Of a DNA stretch of 64,000 nt, positions 20,640-23,583 are shown piece by piece; the first letter of the stretch is position 1; each line of letters opens with the position of its first letter. Under the pieces are notes generated by a model, which was not told the DNA's origin, searched no databases, and saw nothing but the letters and a program-made list of their open reading frames with translations. Location of the stretch: NCBI RefSeq assembly GCF_009931115.1, contig NZ_CP047491.1, positions 496,001-560,000 of the forward strand. Direction: 5' to 3'. This stretch comes from Microbulbifer hydrolyticus. GTDB taxonomy: Bacteria; Pseudomonadota; Gammaproteobacteria; Pseudomonadales; Cellvibrionaceae. The translations under genes were made by a program, and so were the position numbers.

Positions 20640-21347
20640 ATGCACACTAAACCTATCGAAAACAACGGCATACAGGGCGGTGCTCCGGCGATCGGTATTA
20701 TTGCCGGCACCGCAACCGATACGCGCTTCGGACTCGATTTCCTCGCCGCCCGACAGGTGCCGGGGATCGGCCTTGCCATTTCCGCCTCACCACAGGCCCA
20801 GACCCAGCTACAGGCACTGGGGCGGGACGAGTTGACTCGCCAGCTGATCGATGCGATTGCGCGCCTGGAGAACGCCGGTGCCAGCGCGGCGATGATCTAC
20901 TGCAACTCGCTTTCCGGCGCGGTGGATATGACCGCGGTGCGCGCGGCAGTGCCCATTCCTGTGATTTCGCCACTGGACGTGTATGCGGAGCTGACCCAGC
21001 GCTACCGCAACTTTGGCCTGCTGGCAGCCAACTGCCAGAGCTGTGCCAATATCGAGCGCGAGATTCTGGCCGGCAACCCCTCTGCCAAGGTGATCGGTAT
21101 CGGCAATCTGCAGATTGTGGAAGATATCGAGGACGGCATGCCGGCGAGCATGATTGTGCAGCAGCACGCGCTGGACGACCTGGCTGCGGCGCTGGTGAAG
21201 AGCGGCGTGCAAATTCTTATCCTCGGATGCACCCATTTCGACTACTTTTATGAAGAGCTGCTTTTGCACTGTGACGGGATTCGGCTATTTCTGCCTTCGG
21301 AGCGGATGCTCGCAATCCTGCAGGAAAGAGTCGTTCAGGCAGCCTGA
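20640..21347 (+). CDS. Aspartate/glutamate racemase family protein
   Basis: A 235-aa cofactor-independent racemase-like protein. The two catalytic cysteines are visible in MIYCNSLSGAVDM and ILGCTHFDYF. The N-terminal GIIAGTATDTRFGLDF replaces the more usual GG(M/T)S loop, so it belongs to an outlying subgroup of the Asp/Glu racemase superfamily (YgeA-like). Linked to the alanine exporter, it may racemise an amino acid for export or catabolism (inference). Confidence 0.82.
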   Translation: MHTKPIENNGIQGGAPAIGIIAGTATDTRFGLDFLAARQVPGIGLAISASPQAQTQLQALGRDELTRQLIDAIARLENAGASAAMIYCNSLSGAVDMTAVRAAVPIPVISPLDVYAELTQRYRNFGLLAANCQSCANIEREILAGNPSAKVIGIGNLQIVEDIEDGMPASMIVQQHALDDLAAALVKSGVQILILGCTHFDYFYEELLLHCDGIRLFLPSERMLAILQERVVQAA

Positions 21348-21617
21348 ATTTTGTGCGATCCAGTTGGTACGGGTGTTTATTTGCGCCGTGTGCCACATTT
21401 TTACACTGTATTTTCTGCCAAATGGCGTAAAATAGTCTTGTTCGCACCCTGAGGTTGGGGTATTAATCGCGCGAACAAGCGTGCATTCACGCTCGAATAA
21501 TATCGGAATGGCCGCCCGGCGTTATACGCCGGTGCCTGTAGTATGCAGGCGAAGCCATCCGACCGGGTCGCAGGAATGACCTGGCACATAAATTGGTTTT
21601 CAAGGATGAATACAGCC

Positions 21618-23012
21618 ATGACCTTTCACGGCTCCGTCGGTCGTTCCCTGTTCCGTTTCCCCGCTATAGGTGTGTCAGTGCCTTCGTTGAAGGCTCCTGC
21701 AGTGCTTGTTGTGCTGGCCGGATTCTCATTACCTGCATCCGCATTCCCGGGCGAGTCATTGCTTGTGGACACCCAGGTTCCCTTTTTCTGGGTACTCCTT
21801 CTGGTAGTGTCCACGGCGGTATGCGCCTTTGGCTGGACCGTAGCGCGCGCCAAGACCCGCGCAGCGTTAGACGCCGGAGCGGCTCAGGCCACTGACCTGC
21901 AGGCGGAAAACGCCAAGCTGTTCCGGCAGGTACAGTCCCGGGTGCACGAGCTGATGACTCGGGACAAGTTGCTCGAAGAGGCCAAAGCAGAGGCGGAGCA
22001 GATGCGCGAGGAGCACTGCGACTTTCTCTCGATCACCGGCCACCGCATGCGCAAGCCACTGGAAACCCTCGTGAGCACGGTGAACCTGCTCGCGCGCGGG
22101 ACCGATGGCGAAGTTCGCCAGCTGGCGGAAGCGGCAATGGGGCAGTGTCGGGAATTGCGCGGCAGCATTGAAGATATCCAGCGCGCGGGGCAGATTGCCG
22201 CTCAGGGCATGCCCGCCGCCACGGCGCGGGAAACAGTGCAGCGAGAGCTGGAAATCCTGCTGATCGAAAACGACACCCATCCGTCACTGCGCAGCCGCCT
22301 GGAAGCGCGCGGTCACCGGGTGCGCCGGGAAACGAATGGTGTGGATGGCGCCGATGCGGCCTTGCGCGGTAAGTTCGACCTGGTACTGGTCGATGTACGG
22401 CTACCGTTGATCGACGGAGTGGAAACGGCGCGCAAGATTCGGGGTGACTTCGGCAATACGGACTTGCTGATCTTCGGCATGCTGCCAGATCTGCGCAAGG
22501 GCGACCGGGAACGCTATATGGAGCGCGGCCTGACTGGAATACTGCCGCTTCCGGCCAGTGATCCCCAGTTGTTGCAGTTGCTGAGCTGGGTAGAGCAGAA
22601 AACCCGCGACTCGGCACCGGCCAGCAAGCCCGCGCGTGCGGCAAAGGTGCTGAACCCCAGTACCCTGGAGCGCCAGCGCGATACGCTCGGCCACCTGGCT
22701 TTTGCGGAACTTCTGGGTGATCGCCTCGCCAATATGCCGAAGAAGATTACCGCCTTCACCAGCTCACTGACTGGCCGCCACTGGCTCGATGCCCAGCACC
22801 AGGCCCAGGCCATTGCTGCAGAGGCGGAGAGCGTTGGCCTTGAGGTCGTGGCCAGCCGGCTCAAAGCGCTGTCGGCGCGCCTGTCCATCGACGGTGAGCG
22901 GGATTACTGTCGGCACCAGCGCACCGAGATCCTGGGGTTGATGCGCACCTCTATCCAGCAGTTGAAGTCCTGGCGGGAGAAAAATGTTCACACGGAGTGG
23001 GCCCTGAGATAA
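21618..23012 (+). CDS. Degenerate hybrid histidine-kinase-like protein (HisKA - pseudo-REC - pseudo-Hpt)
   Basis: From ATG 21618 (AAGGA 11 nt upstream; the frame is open to 21543, so the start is uncertain) the protein is about 464 aa. Order: two hydrophobic segments (about 27-45 and 55-75), a coiled coil (85-135), a HisKA-like helix pair with LSITGHRMRKPLETLV (His about 142), then directly a receiver-like domain (212-325) with LVDVRLPLIDG (Asp about 259), and an Hpt-like helical bundle at the end. No HATPase_c N or G box is present. The receiver lacks the usual Thr and the KP lysine (ILPLPAS instead), and the Hpt position that should read HxLKG reads AQAIAAEAE. It therefore cannot autophosphorylate by itself and probably works as a scaffold or accepts signals non-covalently. 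Confidence 0.75.
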   Translation: MTFHGSVGRSLFRFPAIGVSVPSLKAPAVLVVLAGFSLPASAFPGESLLVDTQVPFFWVLLLVVSTAVCAFGWTVARAKTRAALDAGAAQATDLQAENAKLFRQVQSRVHELMTRDKLLEEAKAEAEQMREEHCDFLSITGHRMRKPLETLVSTVNLLARGTDGEVRQLAEAAMGQCRELRGSIEDIQRAGQIAAQGMPAATARETVQRELEILLIENDTHPSLRSRLEARGHRVRRETNGVDGADAALRGKFDLVLVDVRLPLIDGVETARKIRGDFGNTDLLIFGMLPDLRKGDRERYMERGLTGILPLPASDPQLLQLLSWVEQKTRDSAPASKPARAAKVLNPSTLERQRDTLGHLAFAELLGDRLANMPKKITAFTSSLTGRHWLDAQHQAQAIAAEAESVGLEVVASRLKALSARLSIDGERDYCRHQRTEILGLMRTSIQQLKSWREKNVHTEWALR

Positions 23013-23112: not shown

Positions 23113-23466
23113 ATGTCTGAGCAGTATCCCGCCCCACAACAGGTTGAGCGCGAGCGCTCGGCCCGCGATATCGCCACTCTGGTGTACCTGATCCAGGCGA
23201 TCAGCCTGTTTACCGCCGTACCATTTTTTGTCGGTGTGCTGATCAATTATGTAAAGCGCGGGGATGTGCGCGGCACGCTGGCGGAATCCCACTTCCGCTG
23301 GCAAATCCGTACCTTCTGGTACAGCCTGCTGTGGTTTGTGGTGGGCTGGGCCACGGTGTGGATTCTTGTGGGTTTCGTGGTCTGGGGCATCAGCTGGGTA
23401 TGGATGGTCTACCGCGTGATTCGCGGCTGGCTGGCCCTTTCGGACAACCGCCCGGCCTATGCCTAG
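23113..23466 (+). CDS. Small membrane protein, DUF4870-like
   Basis: A 117-aa protein with a polar N-terminus (residues 1-20) and three likely membrane helices: LVYLIQAISLFTAVPFFVGV, the Trp-rich TFWYSLLWFVVGWATVWILV and GFVVWGISWVWMVYRVIRGW. VYLIQ...GVLINYVKR...ESHFRWQIRTFWY is the DUF4870/YyaS-like pattern of small bacterial membrane proteins. A strong terminator follows at 23557. Confidence 0.78.
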   Translation: MSEQYPAPQQVERERSARDIATLVYLIQAISLFTAVPFFVGVLINYVKRGDVRGTLAESHFRWQIRTFWYSLLWFVVGWATVWILVGFVVWGISWVWMVYRVIRGWLALSDNRPAYA

Positions 23467-23556: not shown

Positions 23557-23583
23557 GAGCGGCCATGTGGCCGCTCTTTTTTT
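23557..23583 (+). terminator. Rho-independent terminator
   Basis: GAGCGGCC (23557-23564) and GGCCGCTC (23569-23576) form an 8-bp stem over ATGT, followed by seven T. It terminates the plus-strand small membrane protein gene and lies just before the convergent DUF945 gene. Confidence 0.85.

Follow-up and report, generated by a model that had tools for sequence, protein, structure and literature searches.

The gene at 21618-23012 on the forward strand of the window, i.e. of the whole 64,000-nucleotide stretch of Microbulbifer hydrolyticus DNA analysed here, appears to code for a pseudo-hybrid kinase: with a probability of roughly two in three, the protein was once an active 7TMR-DISM sensor kinase and now serves, anchored in the membrane, as a binding protein without enzymatic activity, in which a pseudo-Hpt domain is the working end. 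This reading is supported by the anatomy of the protein, by losses that are ancestral to the genus, by strong purifying selection, by the pairing with a DUF4870 gene and by a later loss of the receiver, all of them computed. This one protein has lost the ATPase domain and has both its receiver and its Hpt site disabled, yet it is kept genus-wide. The textbook role of an Hpt domain is to pass on phosphate; despite this role, the greatest constraint appears to fall on the Hpt-derived domain.

The gene was found in 47 of 48 Microbulbifer genomes, as a full-length form in 44 and without the receiver (REC) in three; it was not found in G033, a Microbulbifer genome that is 80% complete. The other 43 full-length forms have 40-87% identity to the window protein; among named loci, nine at 69-87% identity are all from Microbulbifer, and four weaker ones, from other bacteria, match part of the protein at 25-39%. 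Beyond the genus, only G054, from a sister genus, stands out among 144 genomes of the family (E 1.5e-48), followed by G086 at 3e-16. When 390 genomes of the order were searched with a profile of the C-terminal domain, 11 matched at E 0.001; nine of these belong to the genus and the other two matches are marginal (E about 6e-4 and 9e-4). Candidate intact orthologues in genera g11 (G086) and g14 (G090, G092, G093, G094, G095) share no flanking genes with the locus and were set aside.

The G054 protein (977 aa; L051 7546-10479, minus strand) is encoded at a locus syntenic with the window, with AlaE upstream and DUF4870 downstream. It contains 7TMR-DISM_7TM (E 8.4e-7), HisKA, HATPase_c, Response_reg and Hpt domains, the last scoring 25.1 bits when scanned alone (cut-off 24.6) and 19.3 bits in the whole protein; it retains the His-Glu...Thr of HisKA, the Glu-Asp, Asp, Thr and Lys of REC and the Hpt His, and is apparently an intact hybrid kinase. 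The window protein is 37% identical to it over REC-Hpt and 26% over the segment from the transmembrane helix through the coil to HisKA. According to the available text of PMC12632262, a pseudo-histidine kinase is a histidine kinase homologue that has lost one or more kinase functions; judged from its sequence, the Microbulbifer protein would belong here, as it has kinase homology, lacks HATPase and shares the synteny of the G054 gene. The catalytic losses are common to all 44 full-length homologues and are thus not due to chance, and the alignment of homologues that the initial annotation had proposed as a check places them before the diversification of Microbulbifer. The ancestor would have been a sensor-HisKA-HATPase-REC-Hpt kinase, from which the pseudo-kinase derived through deletion and substitution; in the simplest history, the seven-helix sensor and the ATPase domain were lost before the genus radiated, while a signal-like segment and one transmembrane helix were kept.

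The frame is open over 464 codons, according to the list of reading frames and the translation. A further in-frame ATG lies upstream at 21543; the four nearest relatives conserve both the ATG at 21606 and that at 21618, and thus the start may be four codons upstream. The domain order is signal peptide/transmembrane helix-coiled coil-HisKA-REC-Hpt, with no ATPase domain; from the coiled coil onwards this order had already been proposed in the initial annotation, and Pfam, the AlphaFold2 folds and the G054 alignment agree with it. Residues 1-42 (21618-21743) form a signal peptide-like segment, as judged from hydropathy and conservation, that ends in an A-x-A motif; A40-x-A42 is found in 40 of 47 sequences and residue 42 is Ala or Gly in all of them. 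Two hydrophobic peaks, one signal-like and one transmembrane, are also seen in 40/47, and the N-terminus is probably a signal peptide. A single transmembrane helix follows at about residues 55-78 (21780-21851), supported by hydropathy, conservation and a helix in the AlphaFold2 model; its W58 is invariant in the 44 full-length forms. The model and dN/dS values (0.03 among close relatives) support a coiled-coil or signalling helix at residues 79-131 (21852-22010), and a single long helix is predicted to span residues 56-161. The full-length AlphaFold2 model, built from a 48-row alignment (mean pLDDT 79.6, pTM 0.33, so that the arrangement of domains is not reliable), shows a HisKA-type hairpin on a long helix, a receiver of the (beta-alpha)5 type and, at the C-terminus, a bundle of helices. 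The best NCBIfam match is ArcB over residues 195-453, corresponding to REC and Hpt (E 6.5e-18), far below the equivalog cut-off (64 vs 838 bits). Pfam found no 7TMR-DISM sensor in the window protein.

The DHp-like HisKA hairpin occupies residues 132-195 (22011-22202), on the basis of conservation and of a sub-threshold Pfam match at residues 135-188 (E 8.5e-4). Its histidine, H142 (22041-22043), is kept in 45 of 47 sequences, i.e. in 42/44 full-length and 3/3 short forms, and is replaced by Gln in two full-length members, L044 and L061; the Glu at +1 (0/47) and the Thr at +4 are lost in all, the window protein having R143 and K146. A 15-residue linker (22203-22247) stands in place of the ATPase domain, as indicated by the alignment with the G054 kinase, which stops at residue 195 and restarts at residue 208 of the window protein; in the gap, G054 has about 190 residues, including HATPase_c (E 8.9e-28). 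Conversely, Pfam gave no HATPase_c match in the window protein up to E 1. A hidden ATPase domain was rejected, there being neither such a fold nor room for it in the model; indeed, HisKA and REC are joined by a low-confidence linker alone (about residues 197-210), which leaves no place for one between them. The absence of HATPase claimed in the initial annotation is thereby confirmed, and the structure prediction it had called for returned REC and Hpt folds and no ATPase. Since no ATP-binding domain is present, autophosphorylation is not to be expected.

The receiver-derived domain spans residues 211-330 (22248-22607), as supported by Pfam Response_reg (residues 222-321, E 1.6e-8), by residue counts and by the predicted fold, which is backed by solved structures, e.g. 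6is3 with a TM-score of 0.85 by target length. The phospho-acceptor D259 (22392-22394) and the first acidic residue, E217, are kept in 44/44 full-length forms; Asp at the second acidic position is kept in none, being Asn in 39 (N218 in the window protein). The Thr/Ser is also missing from all 44 (Leu in 29, Val in 14, Ile in one), and so is the Lys; the window protein has Leu at both positions (Thr289->Leu, Lys311->Leu), as the initial annotation had noticed. Its statement that the HisKA His and the REC Asp were the only catalytic elements left holds insofar as both are present, but E217 is kept too, and it had missed the losses at N218, R143 and K146. The available text of PMC12632262 defines a pseudo-receiver as a receiver fold without one or more of the five active-site residues, and the domain, with its fold and phospho-Asp, is one by this definition. 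Compared with the pseudo-receivers described in that text, this one has its Asp but not the Thr, the Lys and one of the acidic residues, and three species do without it. In these (G004, G012 and G013), frames of 335-344 codons retain the N-terminus, HisKA and the C-terminal domain; the short forms (L052 6412-7377, L053 6447-7418, L054 6668-7633) lie in the same gene context and have no receiver domain. In the tree they form one clade (100/100) nested among the full-length forms, and thus REC was lost later and is dispensable.

No Pfam Hpt model matched the C-terminal domain, residues 344-464 (22647-23009), up to E 1, and its assignment as pseudo-Hpt is based on the predicted fold and on the alignment with G054. 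When folded alone, it gives a confident Hpt bundle (pLDDT 91.9, pTM 0.84), which superposes on Pseudomonas aeruginosa HptB (7c1i) with Z 15.3 and an rmsd of 2.0 A over 115 residues, and on the ArcB Hpt domain with Z 13.9; the best 24 structural matches are all Hpt domains or proteins. These Z-scores come from re-alignment of Foldseek's own candidates, and in Foldseek alone the Hpt rows have E 0.08 or worse; a PDB sequence search with the profile of the domain returned chance-level rows and no Hpt domains. The Hpt identity rests on homology with G054 together with the modelled fold. The phospho-His motif of Hpt domains is of the H-x-x-K-G type. The position aligned with the phospho-His of G054 is Q397 (22806-22808) in the window protein (His397->Gln), and none of the 44 full-length forms has His there (Gln 38, Arg 4, Pro 1, Leu 1; Leu in 3/3 short forms), in agreement with the loss proposed in the initial annotation. 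A shifted phospho-His was considered and is unsupported: H394 is present in 20/44, and H388 (42/44) is at the start of the helix and not in its middle. The domain ends in a tail, HTEWAL(R/K) (22989-23009), that is conserved in the alignment (W461 in 40/44 and 3/3 short forms, A462 and L463 each in 42/44) and absent from G054; it is possibly a docking or localisation signal. As the receiver is a pseudo-receiver and the Hpt histidine is absent, no His-Asp-His relay is expected. According to the available text of PMC12632262, in which 90 of the 10,312 sampled Hpt domains from bacteria lack the histidine, a missing Hpt histidine cannot be bypassed for phosphotransfer; the pseudo-Hpt must therefore do something else.

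Mean pairwise identity among the 44 full-length forms is 0.74 for the C-terminal domain, 0.59 for REC, 0.49 for HisKA, 0.41 for the coil, 0.29 for the transmembrane helix and 0.24 for the N-terminus, and 14 hand-picked clade representatives give similar values (0.71, 0.58 and 0.45 for the first three). Column entropy of the C-terminal domain is lower than that of REC (p 4e-5) and HisKA (p 8e-9), with columns treated as independent; even in the three species without REC this domain is 57-58% identical to the window's. In it, 37 positions are fixed in 46 or all of the 47 sequences, and of these 20 are common to G054 and 17 differ; REC has 25 near-fixed positions, 20 common to G054 and five different. 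This is suggestive of a C-terminal domain that was remodelled and then frozen, as for an acquired function, and of a REC that was merely inherited, in a comparison with one distant outgroup. The sole intact outgroup is the single genome G054, whose branch is long (4.0 changes per column), and for this reason some of the apparently acquired residues may be differences of the G054 lineage.

Nei-Gojobori pairwise estimates of dN/dS over residues 51-464 range from 0.06 to 0.22 across the eight groups tested and are about 0.06 in two groups of close relatives, with dS saturated (>1) over these residues in the close6, short-form and L048/50/56/62 groups. The pseudo-kinase is under purifying selection, and the view that its intact frame reflects a maintained protein is well founded. 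The C-terminal domain has values of 0.020 to 0.148 across groups, while the transmembrane helix and N-terminus are much laxer; the REC value of the short-form group is meaningless, as the domain is absent there. In three relatives with an unsaturated dS of 0.36 (L037/39/40), dN/dS is 0.063 over residues 51-464, 0.033 for the C-terminal domain and 0.008 for REC. REC is as constrained as the C-terminal domain, or more, in some close groups; across the genus alignment, the strongest constraint seems to be on the Hpt-derived domain and not on HisKA or REC. RNA-level constraint at the 3' end is unsupported, dS of the C-terminal domain in two close groups being 0.48 and 0.37, similar to or above the 0.36 and 0.46 over residues 51-464.

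In the mechanism that we favour, the signal peptide/transmembrane segment and the coiled coil-DHp hairpin would hold a membrane-anchored dimer, which would present the remodelled four-helix Hpt bundle as a phosphorylation-independent protein-binding surface; candidate partners are a receiver domain, another kinase, as in a BarA/GacS-type relay, or the DUF4870 protein. This is close to the suggestion of the initial annotation that the protein inhibits another phosphorelay or is a structural partner in it, which is plausible; taken as a whole, that interpretation is partly supported. More specifically, a kinase may have been dismantled in one genus so that its His-less Hpt, tethered to the membrane and independent of phosphorylation, became the main module for output or scaffolding, with DUF4870 as its partner; we offer this version tentatively, at somewhat less than even odds. 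If true, the pseudo-HPt idea from plants would have a bacterial counterpart here, with extant stages that are intact (G054), without ATPase, and without both ATPase and REC, and this series makes the residual function of a dead phosphorelay protein testable by domain swaps in marine bacteria that are not pathogenic.

A decaying, functionless remnant would agree with the stepwise loss of sensor, HATPase and, in one clade, REC; it is hardly credible, as frames are open in 47 species, C-domain dN/dS is low in every group tested, and invariant residues persist across orthologues of 40-57% identity. The 47 genomes and the dN/dS values also led to rejection of a pseudogene or an assembly error. The conservation of H142, D259 and E217 would suit a relay element phosphorylated in trans, or a phosphate sink in which another kinase phosphorylates H142, the phosphate passes to D259 and is then lost; since the Glu after the HisKA His and the second acid, Thr and Lys of REC are lost in 44/44, two members have Gln for H142 and three species lack REC, this is a very doubtful role. 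Nevertheless, the HisKA His and the REC Asp are conserved beyond the need of a purely structural role, which counts against the favoured reading, and it is conceivable that either residue is phosphorylated in trans.

Two narrower readings concern the partner, and both seem unlikely. The protein could modulate a BarA/GacS-type relay, its DHp domain heterodimerising or its pseudo-Hpt competing at BarA/UvrY, in the manner of RetS. The PF01627 Hpt model finds just two frames in the window's genome, a BarA-like one of 1064 codons and a ChpA/CheA-like one of 2184 codons; the BarA-like relay is thus the only other kinase-receiver-Hpt relay seen, in a scan that misses divergent Hpt domains, the pseudo-kinase's own included. 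The best NCBIfam match of the BarA-like kinase is PRK11107 BarA (577 bits, below the cut-off of 890). RetS and LadS have a 7TMR-DISM sensor, and so does the ancestor-like G054 kinase. G033, without the pseudo-kinase, also lacks a BarA orthologue (best 25% identity), which G000, G012 and G054 have; this co-absence is a single weak case in a genome of the completeness given above. No response regulator gene adjoins the pseudo-kinase. Alternatively, and no more probably, the protein could associate with the DUF4870 protein in a membrane complex and be no longer involved in any phosphorelay. The DUF4870 gene is directly downstream on the same strand in 47/47 loci and in G054, and no terminator-like site separates the two genes; it is the only gene that adjoins the pseudo-kinase at every locus, and the initial annotation had not brought it up. 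However, adjacency may reflect shared transcription only, and the pairing is older than the losses and therefore does not explain them; moreover, G033 keeps DUF4870 (69% identity) without the pseudo-kinase, after an unrelated HATPase-bearing kinase, and no open-licence paper combining DUF4870 and a histidine kinase was found. The preferred reading of a non-enzymatic binding protein accommodates either partner.

To our knowledge, the pseudo-enzymes described for two-component systems are mostly single dead domains. DivL and RocA retain a degenerate ATPase region, and in RetS and LadS the kinase core is preserved. Unlike DivL and RocA, the Microbulbifer protein has no ATPase domain and carries a fused pseudo-receiver and pseudo-Hpt; unlike RetS and LadS, of the 7TMR-DISM hybrid-kinase type shared with the syntenic G054 kinase, it lost both sensor and ATPase. 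AHP6, a plant pseudo-HPt with an Hpt fold without phospho-histidine, is a soluble, stand-alone protein kept as a regulator, whereas here the pseudo-Hpt sits in a membrane-anchored bacterial fusion. ArcB/BarA-type tripartite hybrid kinases have a similar HisKA-REC-Hpt order, but HATPase is missing from the Microbulbifer protein. As described in the accessible parts of the respective papers, DivL of Caulobacter (PMC4211667) and RocA of group A Streptococcus (PMC7028121) are likewise membrane signalling proteins that derive from kinases but have no kinase activity, RocA acting via another kinase and not needing its predicted phospho-His (PMC7028121), and RetS and LadS of Pseudomonas act on GacS (PMC5992135, PMC4866733). 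Pseudo-histidine kinases, pseudo-receivers and pseudo-Hpt proteins have each been described already, as stated in the available text of PMC12632262; in the open-licence literature we found neither a description of this pseudo-kinase nor any report of a protein that lacks the ATPase and has both receiver and Hpt disabled.

The window's genome has 27 HATPase_c matches, and its BarA-like kinase (L106 1327-4518; genome positions 2619326-2622517) has complete HisKA, HATPase, REC and Hpt domains. The DUF4870 gene, for a small membrane protein, is located at 23113-23466 on the forward strand (Pfam E 4.6e-4, sub-threshold). A pattern scan found no terminator-like hairpin between 23012 and 23113; at 23557-23576 (forward strand; matched on both), DUF4870 and the convergent DUF945 gene are separated by a hairpin of 8 perfect pairs with a T run, which is likely their shared terminator, in a region with four terminator-like sites against 5.1 expected, which makes the scan weak by itself. 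At the G033 locus (L139 5071-8237), DUF4870 stands behind genes for an NtrC-like regulator and the kinase mentioned above, and further partial DUF4870 copies are present in that genome; distant DUF4870 genes in three more genera (G103, G129, G132) had no comparable kinase neighbour that could be recognised. AlaE is upstream of the pseudo-kinase in 42 of 47 loci and was not found within the flank fetched in the other five. Finally, an Asp/Glu racemase-family gene lies between AlaE and the pseudo-kinase in the window (20640-21347) and is present in part of the genus only, the gene order around it being otherwise kept across the genus.
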